Assembly: GCA_031291395.1 (NCBI GenBank)
Contig: JARLJD010000216.1
Location: 1 to 48,252, forward strand
Source of the DNA: Alphaproteobacteria bacterium
GTDB lineage: Bacteria > Pseudomonadota > Alphaproteobacteria > UBA9219
Reading direction: 5' to 3'
Length of the DNA stretch: 48,252 nucleotides
Of this stretch, positions 19,539 to 44,473 are shown piece by piece; position 1 is the first letter of the stretch, and each line of letters begins with the position of its first letter. The notes under the pieces were generated by a model. It searched no databases. It had not been told where the DNA came from and saw only the letters and a list, made by a program, of their open reading frames with translations. The translations under genes were made by a program, and so were the position numbers.

Positions 19539-19568
19539 CCGTCATTCCCTCGAAAGCGGGAATGACGG
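19539..19568. repeat. GTCATTCCCGC-type short palindrome
   Basis: The perfect 11 bp arms CCGTCATTCCC and GGGAATGACGG are separated by an 8 bp loop, between rpsP and ffh. It belongs to the same family as copies at 31221, 33076, 44333 and 48098. Confidence 0.8.
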
Positions 19569-33813: not shown

Positions 33814-34782
33814 TTACCCCGCCCTCATCATCGTGCGGCTGGCGCGGCGTTCGTGGCGGATGAGGGAAAGGCCGGAGGCGACGATGATCGCCGCGCCGCA
33901 AAGCAACCAGACGCTTGGCACATCGCTCCAGATAAGATAGCCGAGCACGGCGCCGAGGATGAGTTCCGAATATTGGAAAGGCGCGACGGACGCCGCCGGA
34001 GCGTTTTTATAAGCCTCGGCCAAAAGCGTCCAACCCGCGCCGCCCAACGCGCCCGATCCGCACAGGGCAAGGAAAATATGCGGCTTCATCGCGACAAATC
34101 CCGTGGCGGCGCAAAGGACAAGCCCGCCCACGGCAAGCGCTGCGCGGGCATAGAACGATGTGCTCTCGCTGCTTTCCTTATCCGCCACGACGCGGAGCAA
34201 AAACATAAGCAGCGCCGAAGCCGCCATATTGCCGAAAAGAAAGAGATAGGGGATCAAACCTCCGCCGTGCGCGGAAAGGGTGGAAGGATTAACGGCGACC
34301 ACGACGCCGACAAAGCCTGCGAATATAGAAGCCGCGCGCTTCCAGCCGAGAGGCTCTTTCAGGAAAACAACCGCCAGAATCGCGACGGCCATCGGCGCCA
34401 TAAAAGAAACCACATACATATTGGCCAGCGGCAGAAGGGGCAGCGCCAGCATCCAGAAAGAAAAAGACGCCACTTGGCACAGGCCGATCGCCAGAAGGCC
34501 AATCGGCCGATGCGGTTGCAACCGGTCAAGCTTTCCCCTTAAAGCCGACGCAAGAAAAATGACCGCCATGCTGCCGACCCCGCAAATCAGCATGATTTGC
34601 CCCATCGGAACGCTCGCCATTCGCGCCAGCTTCAACAGCGCGTCGCTGACTGTCCATAAGACAAAGGCGATCAGGGCTAAGGATGCGGCGCGGGGGTAGT
34701 TGCTAGAGGAAGAAAAGCATCCCCCGCTACATGGCGGGCAGATAACAAACCTTTTGGCAACTAATTGATATATAAGGCGCAT
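33814..34782 (-). CDS. EamA-family (DMT) transporter
   Basis: The 322-residue protein has ten hydrophobic helices and two EamA halves (first near 30-165, second near 180-305; ALPLLPLANMYVVSFMAPMA, VFLKEPLGWKRAASI; APFQYSELILGAVLGYLIWS). It is probably an inner-membrane exporter of metabolites or amino acids. The N-terminal 25 residues (ICPPCSGGCFSSSS) precede the first helix and are encoded by a palindromic, repeat-like stretch, so they may be a recent addition. The ATG overlaps the stop of the upstream AlbA_2 gene by one base (TAATG), indicating coupling. Confidence 0.88.
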   Translation of the reverse strand: MRLIYQLVAKRFVICPPCSGGCFSSSSNYPRAASLALIAFVLWTVSDALLKLARMASVPMGQIMLICGVGSMAVIFLASALRGKLDRLQPHRPIGLLAIGLCQVASFSFWMLALPLLPLANMYVVSFMAPMAVAILAVVFLKEPLGWKRAASIFAGFVGVVVAVNPSTLSAHGGGLIPYLFLFGNMAASALLMFLLRVVADKESSESTSFYARAALAVGGLVLCAATGFVAMKPHIFLALCGSGALGGAGWTLLAEAYKNAPAASVAPFQYSELILGAVLGYLIWSDVPSVWLLCGAAIIVASGLSLIRHERRASRTMMRAG

Positions 34783-36302
34783 TATATATTCCTAAGTTTG
34801 TTATCCAGAACGCCTGATAATAACTCAACCTGTTCCACAGATCGACCAGTCTTAATATAAGCCATATTTCGTTTAGCCCGCCCCGGAAGCGGCTCTAACA
34901 ATCCCTGCTCAACCCATATCCGCAGTAGCTTGGAGGCTCGCAACGTATCTATTTTACTAATTTTACACAAATCGGCATTCGCTATAGGGCCGCGTCGTTC
35001 TACCCAGTCACTTACTTCATTCCAAATAGACGGCCGTTCTGCATTCAACAGCGTAACGACAACACATTCGGACATAAGTTCACTATTCTGACGATATTGC
35101 GGCGGATACAAGTGAGCCGCGTCCATTTGCTCAAACATCATCGGGACGCCTTCATTAAGATCGAAGTTAGGCGGTTTAGGAAAATCTCTGAGTGTTCTCA
35201 CAATCAAAGGGTTGCGGGCATTTGACCCCGCTGTTTTAATGTTTGCCGGGGTAATGGAGCCAGGAAAAACACCGGGACTCTCAATTTCAAGACGATCATC
35301 AAAAATGCGAATAAGAATATCGCGATTAAGTCGATAGTCTCGATGAAGAACCGCGTTAACGATAGCCTCTTTAACAACACGCTCCGGATAACGATGCCGC
35401 GTCTTAAATCCGCTATTTTCAAGTTCCACGCCTTGCGCCAATTCATCAAGAACGGCGCGTACAGTCTCCTCAATAAGGCGAACAAGGGGGCCTCGAAATA
35501 CTCGGGGCGGTTTACGAAAATTCGGCGTTGCAGCCGCCTCAACGGATTTACCTCGATACACCATCAACCGAACTTCCGCGCGCGATCCATGCGCTGCAAG
35601 CAAGCCGCCCGGCTCATCTGCGAAAAGAAGCACAGCCGCTCTGGTTGGCCGCAAGGCGTCTTCAACCCTCAATGCAAGCCCCAACTGAGCCATTTGCTCC
35701 GGCAAAGGCCGCGATCGCCCAAATCCACGCGCGGAAGAAAATTCATCCCATACGGGCGTTTCCAATAAAGACCAATCGACAAAAATCGGTTCCGCTTCAG
35801 CGCTTCTTATTCCTCTGCGATACGAAAGTTCGGTAATTTCAACCGCTGTCATAGGCCGATTGCTTGCCCTCATTCGACACAATGTATTTCCGTCGATAAC
35901 AGAATGAACCTTTCCGCTTTGCAGCACATGCACAACAACTATATGCCCGTCAGTATTGTCTCGAAGGCGGCAGGCAACACGTAGCAAAAGAATGTTATCT
36001 GCTGGAATTGGCGGCATGAATTGCGATGAAATTTTGCGCAATAACTCATCCAACGCCTCAGGGTTTTCTTCTACCCCATACAGCCTAATGTTGCCATTTT
36101 CCTGCTTGTTATCGGCAACTCCAAGAACAAGGCTGCCTCCTTCCGAATTTGCGAAGGCACAAATGGTGTCCAACGCTTTGCTCACCATCTTTCCTGAAAC
36201 GCGCTTAAACTCAAGCCGATGCCCTTCTGGGGTTATCAAAAACTTCCCTATTGTTTCTTTCGCTTCGTCAAAGGAAATTTCGATCATCTGATTCGGTTGC
36301 AT
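34782..36302 (-). CDS. AlbA_2/Schlafen-type ATP-binding protein
   Basis: The 506-residue protein has an N-terminal AlbA_2 domain (about 20-150: LEFKRVSGKMVSKALDTICA, then FANSEGGSLVLGVAD). A RecG-like GHKL ATPase part (about 320-420: PERVVKEAIVNAVLHRDYR, ILIRIFDDRLEIESPGVFPG) and a C-terminal winged helix follow. Such proteins appear near mobile DNA and defence genes and are described loosely as transcription or nucleic-acid-binding ATPases. It begins 4 bp after the secA stop and is more AT-rich than its neighbours, which suggests insertion into the secA transcript. The start at 36302 is chosen over the frame's opening at 36419 inside secA. Confidence 0.85.
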   Translation of the reverse strand: MQPNQMIEISFDEAKETIGKFLITPEGHRLEFKRVSGKMVSKALDTICAFANSEGGSLVLGVADNKQENGNIRLYGVEENPEALDELLRKISSQFMPPIPADNILLLRVACRLRDNTDGHIVVVHVLQSGKVHSVIDGNTLCRMRASNRPMTAVEITELSYRRGIRSAEAEPIFVDWSLLETPVWDEFSSARGFGRSRPLPEQMAQLGLALRVEDALRPTRAAVLLFADEPGGLLAAHGSRAEVRLMVYRGKSVEAAATPNFRKPPRVFRGPLVRLIEETVRAVLDELAQGVELENSGFKTRHRYPERVVKEAIVNAVLHRDYRLNRDILIRIFDDRLEIESPGVFPGSITPANIKTAGSNARNPLIVRTLRDFPKPPNFDLNEGVPMMFEQMDAAHLYPPQYRQNSELMSECVVVTLLNAERPSIWNEVSDWVERRGPIANADLCKISKIDTLRASKLLRIWVEQGLLEPLPGRAKRNMAYIKTGRSVEQVELLSGVLDNKLRNI

Positions 36303-36306
36303 ATCG

Positions 36307-39256: not shown

Positions 39257-40480
39257 TTACTTCACCGACCCCTTCGTCCCCTGAACAATCCAAACCCCGC
39301 CGTCTTGCTGGATGGCGGTGATGTTGCCGATGCCGGGCAGTTTATCGCCCACCTTAAGTTGTTTCAGGTCGGGAGAGGTCGGGCTGGTTGCAACCCATGC
39401 TTGCCCGGGCGTCGCGGCGCGCAGAACCCATTTGTTTTCGACCGTGGCTTCGCGCGGCGCTTTTTTAACATGCTTAACATGCCGCGAAACGGCGGTTTGA
39501 CTATGCTCTTTGTGCGTTTTGTGGGCGTGGCGCGATGATGCCGCCACCGATGGCTTTGACACAAGCACGGGGCTTTCGGGTCTTAGCGATGTGACAGGGG
39601 CAGCTTCCGGATATTTTGCGTTGAGATCCGCAAGCTGCTGTTGCAGCTTGTCAATCTGATCCTGCAAATCCTTGACGCTGGGGGTTGAAGAAGCGCCGAC
39701 GTTCGCCGTTGCGATGGCGCTCGTCATCTGTCCCAATTGCTGGTTAATCTGATCCAAAGCATTTTTCAGCTTGTCAACGCGTGCGGCCAGCGTCTCGATG
39801 CGGGAATCCGTCGATTCGCCGTTCAAGGCCGCAGGAGCCAGCGGGGATAGAACCGGCGCCGAAGCCGCCGCAACGGGCGACGGCGCAACAGCGGGAGATA
39901 CGGGAATGGCCGGCTTCACTGGCGCGGGAGCCGTTGCTTCAGGCAACGGTTTTTGACTTTCGGTTGCATCTTTCGGTTGCAACGCAGCAGCAAGGATTGA
40001 CTCAGGTTCGGACGCAGAAGGCTTGCTGTTTGCAACATCTGGCGCAACGCCCGAAACGGGAGAGGGCAAAGCCCCTGCTAACGGCGCTTTCTCCTCAACC
40101 GACGCTGTTCTGGGGGCAACCGGAAGGACGGCAGGTTTTTGCGCGTCGGAAACTGTGGCGGGCAAGGGCATTGCCGCAGGCGCTAGAGGAGAAGGGGGCG
40201 TTGGGGGCGATAGGCTCCCGAGCTGCCACCATGCTACGCCGCCCAGCAGCACAAGACCGCCAACCGCCGCCGCAATCGGCAAAATCGGCGAACGCCGCGC
40301 GGTTTTGGATTCCTCGTCCTTTTCGCCTTCGAGCGGATATGACGCCGCGTGATCGGCAGAATCGGGATCGCCATATTCGAATTCGGAAGGCGCCTCGTGC
40401 ACGGCCTCGCTTTCGGGACGCAAGACTTCGTCATGCCCTGCTTCATGATCGGGTGGTTCTGAACCAAAAGTATCGGTCAT
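39257..40480 (-). CDS. Type IVB secretion protein DotF/IcmG-like
   Basis: The 407-residue protein has an acidic cytoplasmic N-terminus, one membrane helix (about 66-88) and a long Pro/Ala-rich periplasmic linker. A coiled coil follows (about 225-285: RIETLAARVDKLKNALDQIN; LQDQIDKLQQQLADLNAKY). The C-terminal domain (VLRAATPGQAWVATSPTS, VGDKLPGIGNITAIQQDGG) matches the DotF/IcmG and TraP type ending. DotF is an inner-membrane part of the Dot/Icm core that contacts DotG. Family assignment is by architecture and C-terminal pattern. It is transcribed away from the MAPEG and dotH-dotG genes. Confidence 0.6.
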   Translation of the reverse strand: MTDTFGSEPPDHEAGHDEVLRPESEAVHEAPSEFEYGDPDSADHAASYPLEGEKDEESKTARRSPILPIAAAVGGLVLLGGVAWWQLGSLSPPTPPSPLAPAAMPLPATVSDAQKPAVLPVAPRTASVEEKAPLAGALPSPVSGVAPDVANSKPSASEPESILAAALQPKDATESQKPLPEATAPAPVKPAIPVSPAVAPSPVAAASAPVLSPLAPAALNGESTDSRIETLAARVDKLKNALDQINQQLGQMTSAIATANVGASSTPSVKDLQDQIDKLQQQLADLNAKYPEAAPVTSLRPESPVLVSKPSVAASSRHAHKTHKEHSQTAVSRHVKHVKKAPREATVENKWVLRAATPGQAWVATSPTSPDLKQLKVGDKLPGIGNITAIQQDGGVWIVQGTKGSVK

Positions 40481-40714
40481 CGCTTAACTCCTGTGATTTT
40501 CGCTGGATCAGGCGGTTTAGAAAGGATTCCTGAGAAACGGACTGCGCAGCCCCCGATCTTCGCGAGATTTTGCCCTTACGCAAGCGGGGAGACAAGCTTT
40601 TTCGATGCAAGAATTCCGAAGCTTGAATATCCGCAATTCCAGACCGGCGCAGGTTTCAGTCTATGTAACGCTTTTCAAAACTTTTGTATCGAAAAAAAGA
40701 TGATCCATTCCTTA

Positions 40715-41143
40715 CTAATGCGTCAGCATAGGCACCCAATAAAGACAGAGACAAATGAAGCTGGCGATTGTCAGAACCAGATAAGTTAGTTGCGCTCCCA
40801 GAAAACGCAACGCATCGGCGCCGTGAATAAAATTGCTGCCGAAAGCATGCATCAGCCGCGCGGCGACCAGAGCGGCGCCAAGTCCATGTATGACAGCCGC
40901 CGGCGCCCCGCCGGATTCGGCCAAGCCTATCAAAAGCAGCGTAAGCGGAACGTAATCGGTAAAACTGCCGACGAGCGCCTCGGCGCGGCGCAAGGCTTGT
41001 GCGGCGCTGGAAGCACGGGCAGGATCGCCCGATACACCTTGACTTGCCGCCTTGATCCAGCTCTTCGTCATGTTGAAGGAAAGCACGACCAGAAACAGCC
41101 CCAGAAGACCAGCGTAAAGCGAGGTAATGTGAAAAGACGCCAT
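40715..41143 (-). CDS. MAPEG family membrane protein
   Basis: The 142-residue protein has four helices and the MAPEG pattern (SLYAGLLGLFLVVLSFNMTK; RRAEALVGSFTDYVPLTLLL; HGLGAALVAARLMHAFG). Family members include glutathione- and lipid-related membrane enzymes. Bacterial copies are mostly uncharacterised. It lies between the DotF-like and DotH genes, but nothing links it to secretion. The 40481-40714 gap shows no gene. Confidence 0.85.
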   Translation of the reverse strand: MASFHITSLYAGLLGLFLVVLSFNMTKSWIKAASQGVSGDPARASSAAQALRRAEALVGSFTDYVPLTLLLIGLAESGGAPAAVIHGLGAALVAARLMHAFGSNFIHGADALRFLGAQLTYLVLTIASFICLCLYWVPMLTH

Positions 41144-41340
41144 TTAATCACCTATCTTATGGTTAATTTTTGAGCGGGATGAGACGAAAAAGCCACAGAT
41201 TTTCTTGCAGAACTTTTTTGTCACGAAGAGACTTGAATTGTGAAGATATTTGAAGTTATAAACTTACTATTAACTTTCATATGATCAAACATTAGTTCGG
41301 ACAGATAGTCTATTTGATTCGGGGATGTTCTTTGCGTTAC

Positions 41341-42504
41341 ATGTTAACACACTTCCGGTTTCGTCCGGTTTCTCGTTCCCTCTTGGCCGTTGGCGCCTTG
41401 TTGGCTCTGGCAGGGGTTCCGGCGTATGCCGCCGATGTCGGCGCTGTCGCGCCTGCAGCTGTTCCTGCGGCGCAAGCCGTCGTGACGGGACAAGGACAGG
41501 CGGTTTATCCCATGGCGGCTCCCGCGGCAACGTCCGCGAAGAGCGTGCCAACGACAGTCGATCCGCCGACCTTGGCTGCGCCTGCGTCGGCGATGTCCGG
41601 AATCAACATTCCTTCTCCGCCGCCGCCCTCGGCTTTTTCGTCGGACGCCAATCAGTTGGCGGCACAGGCCGAGCAGGCTGCGTTGCAAGCGCAAGCGCAG
41701 GCTGACGCCGATCAGCACAAACGCGAGACGGAGCACAATGAAAAATCTTATGACAAGGCCGCAACGGGCCTGATGCCGCTGTCGCCCGATCAGGTGCGCG
41801 ATTTCATGCACCGGTTGGAGCAAACGCAAAACGCGGCGCAAATGCCTTATGAAGGGACGCCCAAAGGGGAAACGCGCATCGCGACGATATCGCTCGCGCC
41901 GGGTGTCGAACCGCCGCAGGTCAATCTTGCCTCCGGCTATGTCACCACGATCGAACTGGTCGACGTTACTGGCGCGCCGTGGCCGATACTGGATGTCGGC
42001 GTTGGTGGCAATTTTGAGGTTTCCCCGACTCAGGCTGGATCGCATGTCGTGCGTGTGATGCCTTTGACCCGTGTCGGTACCGGCAATTTGTCGATTTTAC
42101 TCAAGGATTTGCCGACGCCGGTGATTTTCCGCCTCGCGGCGGGCGGCCCGACGGTCGATTTGCTCTATGACGGGCGCATCGGCAAGGTCGGTCCCGAGGC
42201 AAAGCCGCAAATCATCAACCGCCCGCGGCTGGAGGCGGGCGACGATACCTTAACGATGATCCTTGAAAACGCGCCGCCGCCCTCTGCCAAGCGCGTCAAG
42301 ATCGGCGGCCTCGACGCTCGCACCAAGGCATGGGAGATCGGCGACAAGGTCTATGTGCGCACGCCCCTTACTCTGCTATCGCCAGCATGGAACGCCAGCG
42401 AAGCTTCGGGCGACGGCACGACGGTTTACGAAATAGGCAATGCGCCCGTTCTCTTGTTGTCCGATAACGGATCCATGGTGCGCGCACTCATTTCACGGGA
42501 CTAA
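41341..42504 (+). CDS. dotH: Type IVB secretion outer-membrane core protein DotH/IcmK
   Basis: The 387-residue protein has a signal peptide (SRSLLAVGALLALAGVPAYA, cleavage before ADVG). An Ala/Gln-rich helical segment (about 100-140) and a conserved C-terminal region follow. The latter includes SPDQVRDFMHRLEQTQ, ISLAPGVEPPQVNLASGYVT, GAPWPILDVGVGGNFEVSP and PTPVIFRLAAGGPTVDLLYD, the DotH/IcmK signature. DotH, DotC and DotD form the outer ring of the Dot/Icm or I-type conjugation apparatus; DotC and DotD are not in this window. ATG 41341 is chosen; the ribosome site is weak. dotG follows 4 bp later. Confidence 0.88.
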   Translation: MLTHFRFRPVSRSLLAVGALLALAGVPAYAADVGAVAPAAVPAAQAVVTGQGQAVYPMAAPAATSAKSVPTTVDPPTLAAPASAMSGINIPSPPPPSAFSSDANQLAAQAEQAALQAQAQADADQHKRETEHNEKSYDKAATGLMPLSPDQVRDFMHRLEQTQNAAQMPYEGTPKGETRIATISLAPGVEPPQVNLASGYVTTIELVDVTGAPWPILDVGVGGNFEVSPTQAGSHVVRVMPLTRVGTGNLSILLKDLPTPVIFRLAAGGPTVDLLYDGRIGKVGPEAKPQIINRPRLEAGDDTLTMILENAPPPSAKRVKIGGLDARTKAWEIGDKVYVRTPLTLLSPAWNASEASGDGTTVYEIGNAPVLLLSDNGSMVRALISRD

Positions 42505-42508
42505 GATC

Positions 42509-44032
42509 ATGACAGATAATTCCGATAACGAAAACAACGACGAATTCCTTGAGCCCGAAATTGGCGCTCCGGAAGAAGAATCAAAGCCGTCCGGCGTTGC
42601 CGGAAATATACGCGAAGCGTGGAACACGCGGCCATTTTTCAAGTTTATGGTTTTGCTCGTCGCCGTTTTTGCGGTTGGCGTGGCTGCCATCAACTTTTTT
42701 GGCGGTAACTCTGCCAATAGTGAGCTGGCGCGATTGGGGACTCCTCCGGCTACGTTGAAGGAAGCGCCCGGCGGCCCGACGTCTCCCTATGTCAAGGCGC
42801 AGACCGAAATGGCGAACAAGGAACGCACCGACCAGGCGATCGCCACCGGCGGCAGCGCCATTCCGACGCCGATCGGCCAGACATCGAACATCAGCGGCCT
42901 TGATTCGGAGAAAAAAGAAGACCCCCTGCGCGAGCTGCGCGTCGAAACGGATGAGCTTAAAAAACAGATCCAGCAGCAGAAGGCTCAACAGCAGCAGTTT
43001 CAACAACAGCAGGTTCAGCAACAGCAGCGTCCGCCAGAGCAGTTCGACAATTCGCTGGCTGAGGCAATGCAGCGCCAGATGCAGCAACTGTTGGAAAGCT
43101 GGACGCCCAAGGGCATCAAGAATGTGACGGTGATCAAGCCCGAAGACCTGAAGAACGAAGAAAAGGCCGCGCAAGCCGCCGCAGGAACTCCGGCGCAGGC
43201 TGCGCAGCTCGCTCCGTCCGGGGCGAAACCAAAGGCTTTTGTCAGCGCCGGAACCGTCAGCTATGCCCAGCTTTTGACGGAAGCCAATTCCGACGTTCCC
43301 GGCCCTATTCTGGCGCAGATCGTGTCGGGGCCTTTGACGGGCGCGCGCGCGATCGGGTCGTTTCAGGAAGCGATGGGCTATGATAAATATCTGGTGATGC
43401 GATTCTCGATCGCCGACAAAAACGGCAAGGATTACAAGATCGATGCCTATGCTCTTGATCCCGATACAACTCTGGGGGGGATGGCGACCGAGGTTGACGA
43501 ACGTTATTTCGCGCGTGTCATTCTTCCCGCCGCGGCGGGCTTCCTGCAAGGCTTGGGGCAAGCAATGGGGCAGGGCAATGTCACGATTGAAAACACCGGA
43601 ACGGCCACGATCACGACGCAAGGCTCCCAAGGCTTCAGGCAGGGCATGTATAACGGCATGGGCACAGCAGCGACGACGATGGGCTCGTTCTTTCAGAATC
43701 AGGCCAATTTGACCAAGCCGTTGGTTCGTGTGGCGGCAGGCACCGCTATGGGCATGTTCTTTGTCGCGCCCGTCTACGATCCTTCCGTCGACGCCGGTTC
43801 TTCGGAACAAAATGCGGTTGGCGCGGCCAATACCCACAACAACGCCAATGGGTACGCCAACGCCAACTATCCCGGAACGACGGTAAACGGCTATGGGAAC
43901 AGCCAGAATACGGGGAACGTGCCTTATCCGAATTATGCGACGGCCGGAAACCGCAATTCTAATCAGGCTTTTGGCGCCATGCCGCAATACATGCCCGCTT
44001 CTCAGAATTACGGACAGAATTACGGGCAATAA
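42509..44032 (+). CDS. dotG: Type IVB secretion core protein DotG/IcmE
   Basis: The 507-residue protein has a cytoplasmic acidic N-terminus and a single membrane helix (about 43-63). A Gln-rich coiled stretch (about 151-178) and a C-terminal TrbI/VirB10-like domain (about 245-420) follow. This domain contains VSAGTVSYAQLLTEANSDVP, SGPLTGARAIGSFQ, YDKYLVMRFSIADKNGKDY and PDTTLGGMATEVDERYFAR, which identify DotG/IcmE. It lacks the long pentapeptide repeat region of Legionella DotG and is about half that length. The last 80 residues are Asn/Tyr/Gly-rich. It lies 4 bp after dotH. Confidence 0.9.
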   Translation: MTDNSDNENNDEFLEPEIGAPEEESKPSGVAGNIREAWNTRPFFKFMVLLVAVFAVGVAAINFFGGNSANSELARLGTPPATLKEAPGGPTSPYVKAQTEMANKERTDQAIATGGSAIPTPIGQTSNISGLDSEKKEDPLRELRVETDELKKQIQQQKAQQQQFQQQQVQQQQRPPEQFDNSLAEAMQRQMQQLLESWTPKGIKNVTVIKPEDLKNEEKAAQAAAGTPAQAAQLAPSGAKPKAFVSAGTVSYAQLLTEANSDVPGPILAQIVSGPLTGARAIGSFQEAMGYDKYLVMRFSIADKNGKDYKIDAYALDPDTTLGGMATEVDERYFARVILPAAAGFLQGLGQAMGQGNVTIENTGTATITTQGSQGFRQGMYNGMGTAATTMGSFFQNQANLTKPLVRVAAGTAMGMFFVAPVYDPSVDAGSSEQNAVGAANTHNNANGYANANYPGTTVNGYGNSQNTGNVPYPNYATAGNRNSNQAFGAMPQYMPASQNYGQNYGQ

Positions 44033-44110
44033 ACTTGACCCTCCGCCAAATCAACGCGAGAGAAGAAATGAATCTAAGAACCTGTTCATGATCTTTTGCT
44101 GTTTGAAGCA

Positions 44111-44300
44111 AAGGGCGCAAAAAGCACGGCAGAGTCCCCCTCCCCTTGAGGGAGGGGTTAGGGGTGGGGTGTATAAAACTCGACAATTATACAAATAAAA
44201 CAATAGTTGTTGTTTTAGCGTGTCCCCTGCCTTTATATACCCCACCCCTAACCCCTCCCTCAGGGGAAGGGGAACTCTGCGGCTTTTGCTGCACTGTTTC
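44111..44300. repeat. MITE-like long inverted repeat, variant copy D
   Basis: The left arm GTCCCCCTCCCCTTGAGGGA with GGGGTTAGGGGTGGGGTGT is complementary to CACCCCTAACCCCTCCCTCA and GGGGAAGGGGAAC. GGCTTTTGCTGCACTGTTTC follows on the right. The inner arms differ from copies A-C (TTGAGGGAGG in place of CTATGGGGGAGG), so this is a subtype. The loop is AT-rich, about 60 bp. Confidence 0.75.
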
Positions 44301-44332
44301 GGATAAATGACAAGATCATGAACAGGCTTTAA

Positions 44333-44473
44333 GCCGTCATTTCCGCGAGAGCGGGAATCCGGTGCGAGCGATAGCGCACCTATAAGGCAACTGCGGTTTC
44401 ATTTGAATTGCCGCCAGACCCTTGCCGCGCAGACACGCGGCGGTGGATTCCCGCTTTCGCGGGAATGACGGCT
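44333..44473. repeat. Full-size compound GTCATTCCCGC palindrome
   Basis: Two hairpins face each other: GCCGTCATTTCCGCGAGAGC...AATCCGG (44333-44362) and GGATTCCCGCTTTCGCGGGA plus ATGACGGC (44445-44472). The interior is about 80 bp. The two ends are complementary, so the whole is an inverted repeat of about 140 bp. With copy D it fills the gap between dotG and dnaA; no gene is seen in 44033-44548. Confidence 0.8.

Follow-up and report, generated by a model that had tools for sequence, protein, structure and literature searches.

What is the core of a Dot/Icm-like secretion machine doing between secA and dnaA on the chromosome of an uncultured alphaproteobacterium, and does such a machine move DNA or protein? 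Legionella and its relatives are the best-known carriers of Dot/Icm machines, and the plasmid form of such machines is best known from IncI conjugation. The DNA analyzed here, a stretch of 48,252 nucleotides referred to as the window, is one contig (C146) of a 2.41-Mb MAG that consists of 222 contigs and is 99.2% complete and 3.9% contaminated. GTDB includes an order named UBA9219 (PMC12981114); the window's family takes in the MAGs UBA9219 (G032, the source of locus L057) and UBA8914, with loci matched by identity, and to judge from the name the order is very probably UBA9219. Our sample of the order comprised 33 genomes. Micavibrio, a name that some hits bear, was considered as the host and set aside, as was Rs-D84, for which evidence was lacking. 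A sequence-only reading of the window had placed a DotF/IcmG-like protein, DotH/IcmK and DotG/IcmE within 4.8 kb between secA and dnaA. Both flanking genes are where that reading put them, and profile searches with all three proteins confirmed the gene identities.

The evidence is strongest for DotH and DotG. DotH (41314..42504, plus strand; ATG 41341 is a possible alternative start) is an outer-membrane core protein with a signal peptide, its predicted topology having a signal-like segment at the start, and it matches Pfam PF12293 at E=1.4e-69 (234 bits, cut-off 25 bits) and Legionella IcmK/DotH (6x62) at E=3e-42. DotG (42509..44032, plus strand) is a channel protein with a TrbI-type C-terminal domain (7e-12, above the cut-off) and a single predicted N-terminal TM-like segment; it matches Legionella DotG (9ngw) at E=4e-23 and the NCBIfam DotG model NF033900 at E=1.3e-49, a score under the equivalog cut-off because the model is full-length and Legionella DotG is about 1000 aa long. 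The gap of 4 bp that had been read between DotH and DotG is borne out provided that DotG starts at 42509, a start preferred because the DotG of relatives begins with MTNN. DotF (39257..40480, minus strand), an inner-membrane core protein, is weak by sequence, with E=9e-8 to NF038218, far under the equivalog cut-off. The DotF family was the most frequent match among its orthologues (10/18), the DotF profile of the order matches Legionella DotF at 1.5e-5, and the gene lies directly 3' of DotG in relatives. The predicted topology is one TM segment near residue 64, a coiled coil and a small C-terminal beta domain; for the modelled domain (AlphaFold/Foldseek), the two best PDB matches were both Legionella DotF in 7muc (probability 1.00, TM 0.63/0.68), with an E value of only 0.07 because the domain is so small. 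Profile, predicted fold and gene order support the assignment of this weak sequence match to DotF.

The sequence-only reading also described the island as split, with DotF opposite to DotH-DotG and a MAPEG gene in between. A local inversion explains this arrangement. Four congeners (L043, L044, L045 and L049) have the genes in the sequence dnaA, MAPEG, DotH, DotG, DotF, secA; blastn alignment to these loci shows that the MAPEG-to-DotG block is reversed in the window while the flanks keep their orientation (aligned-block limits 40724..43773, which give the breakpoints approximately). Inversion of MAPEG-DotH-DotG is the reason why DotF faces away and MAPEG intervenes. The MAPEG-family membrane enzyme itself (40715..41143, minus strand; PF01124, 2.3e-14) is a real gene, kept between dnaA and DotH in the congeners, but it is a mere neighbor that stands outside the machine. 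On the other side of the locus, adjoining secA, a Schlafen/AlbA_2 plus RecG-C-terminal-like protein (34782-36305, minus strand) has no tblastn match in congeners L043-L045, where a DMT transporter gene follows secA.

One edge of the inverted block, in the interval from DotG to dnaA, carries nested inverted repeats (44074-44333 and 44332-44473). They consist of 22-nt outer arms around 68-nt inner arms, followed by a 29-nt inverted repeat, of which approximate copies also occur at 19541 and 31224, and they look like a MITE- or REP-like element. Such repeats at the edge of the block, together with the fragmentation and contamination of the MAG, speak for an artefact in which the T4BSS (type IVB secretion system) contigs were binned from another organism and the inversion is a misassembly. 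We consider this artefact extremely improbable, since dnaA, secA, rpsT, prs and pheT are on the same 48-kb contig, and since congeners assembled as independent MAGs carry these genes at the corresponding site; doubt remains only for the inversion itself.

DotC, DotD, DotO and the coupling ATPase had been noted as absent from the window, from which a scattered chromosomal apparatus in an alphaproteobacterium was proposed. They are found at other sites of the same genome; a genome-wide search for dotA, dotB, dotC, dotD, dotL and dotO recovered all six, the components lie at separate sites beside ordinary chromosomal genes, and the relatives are alphaproteobacterial MAGs. One group, all on one strand of contig C27, runs from a 287-aa conserved protein and a lytic transglycosylase through DotD, DotC, DotB, PilL, PilN, PilO, PilP and PilQ to PilR. 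Here the lipoproteins DotC and DotD match PF16932 (1e-72) and PF16816 (2e-28), DotB scores E=3e-121 and 404.5 bits, under the equivalog cut-off of 463.3, and the pilus genes carry PAP_PilO, secretin, T2SSE, T2SSF and TcpQ domains; a PilS domain is found in a pilin of a relative. Two tandem DotI genes follow a GcrA-like gene on contig C182, and three DotA genes are spread over contigs C12, C157 and C29. DotM (PF23127, 7e-50) is on contig C57, DotO (3e-95 to TraU) lies between phaR-like and purN-like genes on contig C185, and DotL (1.2e-58 to Legionella DotL) is a contig-edge fragment of its C-terminal half beside secF on contig C161. DotE, DotP and DotN were seen in the clusters of relatives. 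With DotH, DotG, DotF, DotC/DotD, the ATPases DotB/DotO, the coupling proteins DotL/DotM, DotI and DotA all found, the machine is almost certainly a T4BSS of the IncI/Dot-Icm kind.

Two neighbors of these genes deserve mention. The 287-aa alpha-helical protein (L014, 15143-16006) is next to the lytic transglycosylase in all three genomes inspected; it has no Pfam match and no IncI counterpart, and its structural model was too poor for use (mean pLDDT 46.5). The GcrA-family regulator (L005, 8558-9040) lies directly upstream of DotI, an arrangement shared by several genera of the order and a hint that the machine is under cell-cycle control.

Evidence for the origin of the dispersed layout came from the sister genera. 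Several of these have the order GcrA-like, DotI, DotI2, DotH, DotG, DotF, DotE, DotP, DotN. DotO, DotM and DotL follow the DotI-to-DotN cluster in genome G004, and in genome G027 the transglycosylase, DotD, DotC, DotB, PilL to PilR and two pilin genes are directly upstream of the cluster. Judging from gene order, the layout of G027 and G004 is the ancestral cluster, which the window's genus has dispersed, with DotH-DotG now adjacent to dnaA; the inversion of MAPEG-DotH-DotG took place in this species.

How widely the machine is distributed bears on its descent. DotH is single-copy in 29 of the 33 genomes of the order, and DotA occurs in 29/33, with between one and four matches per genome, fragments included; none of the 33 lacks both. 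Sampling of 387 genomes across the wider class gave DotH in 15, of which ten lie outside the order. Labels of the MAGs in the order include soil, groundwater, sludge, sulphidic cave and termite gut. The DotH/DotG phylogeny largely tracks taxonomic families: the DotH+DotG tree recovers families f1, f3 and f119 as single, well-supported groups and does not resolve f2. These genes are typical of plasmids and islands and lie in pieces in the window's genus, which would suit an integrated mobile element (an ICE or plasmid) that was recently acquired and is decaying, as would the similar cluster of the related family f68, which includes a PilV-like gene. This explanation is nevertheless very improbable, given the presence of DotH or DotA throughout the order, the family-level grouping, the 29 of 29 DotH frames without internal stops, and pieces that are flanked by dnaA, secA, phaR-like, purN-like and secF genes. 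Strong purifying selection also stands against decay; compared with congener L043, DotH and DotG have dN of 0.18 and 0.21 against a dS of 1.6 that is near saturation. Vertical inheritance of the T4BSS in the order is very likely. A recent plasmid origin was considered separately and rejected, as identity to plasmid DotH is only about 35% even for the matches ranked best.

Several clusters outside this pattern were observed. The cluster of family f68 (G399, locus L151) is more distant, has PilR- and PilV-like genes, and may be a mobile element. In a MAG labelled Micavibrio sp. UBA1850 (L068) and another alphaproteobacterial MAG (L070), DotI-DotH-DotG-DotF runs onward to DotN-DotO, and these clusters adjoin MotA/MotB-like and hemB-like genes. 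The genome paper of M. aeruginosavorus reported no type IV secretion system (PMC3189940).

Whether the inherited machine moves DNA or protein was addressed through relaxases. The genome-wide search covered the MOBP type (PF03432) only, so other relaxase families could be present, and absence of a PF03432 relaxase does not exclude DNA export. PF03432 relaxases occur in 16/33 genomes of the order and are absent from several near-complete DotH-bearing genomes (G004, G006, G008, G010, G014 and G024), and a search of the ORFs at the examined T4BSS loci gave no relaxase. The genome of the window has three MOBP genes, all on mobile-element-like contigs away from the T4BSS genes. Two very similar relaxase modules, L094 and L093, lie on different contigs of this genome, each with a SprT-like gene, a MobC-like gene, the relaxase and the start of a large helicase-like ORF.

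The main rival reading is a chromosomal conjugation apparatus that would still transfer DNA, be it the chromosome that encodes it or mobile elements of the cell that bear a relaxase. Nearly all components have an IncI counterpart, including the thin pilus that serves IncI mating (PMC12857230), and the contigs with the three relaxase genes of the window's genome, in the part examined, encode no transfer channel. This reading is nonetheless unlikely, in view of the near-complete genomes that keep DotH and have no PF03432 relaxase, and of queries with the IncI relaxase NikB, TraK and the exclusion protein ExcA, all without a match in the ORFs of the examined T4BSS loci. The scarcity of relaxases argues against self-transfer as the conserved role; relaxases in only about half of the genomes and none at the T4BSS loci examined favor protein delivery over DNA transfer, and on this comparison we put protein delivery as the main conserved role at slightly better than even. 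The machine may possibly mobilize relaxase-bearing elements in addition.

We return to an inherited machine that acts on other cells. The window holds its core-channel module (DotH, DotG and DotF), which by homology would span the envelope together with DotC and DotD. DotB and DotO would provide energy, DotL-DotM, with DotN where present, would carry substrate to the channel, and DotA and DotI would be inner-membrane parts. Attachment to the partner cell would be the task of a type IVb thin pilus, for which the genome has PilL to PilR and a relative has a PilS-like pilin, and the assembled machine, spanning both membranes, would act on the contacted cell, which we infer to be a neighboring bacterium or protist that receives protein. 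A chromosomally fixed, vertically descended T4BSS with a type IVb pilus, whose conserved role is contact-dependent delivery, is probably the right description; the T4BSS would be a domesticated one, most likely for contact-dependent delivery into neighboring cells. More tentatively, at somewhat less than an even chance, it may form a separate chromosomal branch of T4BSSs that kept the IncI-type pilus and lost self-transfer, serving throughout the order either in symbiosis or as a weapon, with delivery guided by the pilus and dependent on contact. The parts are known, but their combination in an order-wide chromosomal T4BSS, with the pilus of the IncI type and without a linked relaxase, was not found described in the open-access literature searched. 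An inherited T4BSS with an IncI pilus set, seemingly without linked relaxases, is an apparent intermediate between plasmid conjugation and effector injection, and it suggests that delivery from cell to cell is basic to an entire uncultured order.

The closest parallels are with the tra and pil systems of the IncI1 plasmids ColIb-P9 and R64 (MPF_I). Profiles built from proteins of the order and run against IncI proteins match TraY, TraJ, TraI, TraH, TraO, TraN, TraM, TrbC, TrbA, TraT, TraU and TraR, as well as PilN, PilO, PilP, PilQ, PilR, PilS and PilT. The DotF and PilL profiles had no IncI match in the same test; DotF does align with IncI TraP over the C-terminal part of the latter. Shared with IncI1 are thus counterparts of DotA, B, C, D, E/P, G, H, I, L, M, N and O, of the lytic transglycosylase and of PilN, O, P, Q, R and S, and the joint occurrence of pil and tra genes. 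In contrast to IncI1, the system of the order is chromosomal and vertically inherited, and it has a second DotI paralogue, extra DotA copies and a GcrA-like gene upstream of DotI. Type IVb thin-pilus genes are present at the T4BSS loci, and the linked relaxase and accessory genes of the IncI type are not: queries with TraV, TraW, TraX, TraE, TraF, PilM and PilU gave nothing in the ORFs of the loci examined, nor were IncI DNA-processing, entry-exclusion or primase genes found there.

The Legionella gene order is icmL-K-E-G-C-D-J-B, and the DotI-DotH-DotG-DotF-DotE-DotP-DotN-DotO order of the relatives corresponds to it. Similarity to the Legionella machine extends to the DotL match given above and to the DotN of a relative (6e-16). 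The order differs from Legionella in its alphaproteobacterial host, in the type IVb pilus genes alongside and in its several DotA copies. Delivery by known T4BSSs reaches both kinds of target cell, as Legionella Dot/Icm delivers protein into eukaryotes (PMC11338181) and the kib T4BSS of Pseudomonas putida IsoF delivers a toxin into bacteria (PMC9519443). Like the system described here, kib is a non-Legionella chromosomal T4BSS, with DotH, DotG, DotF, DotD and TrbN (PMC9519443). One important difference is that kib sits on a 67-kb genomic island with an integrase (PMC9519443), whereas the system of this order is dispersed and order-wide.
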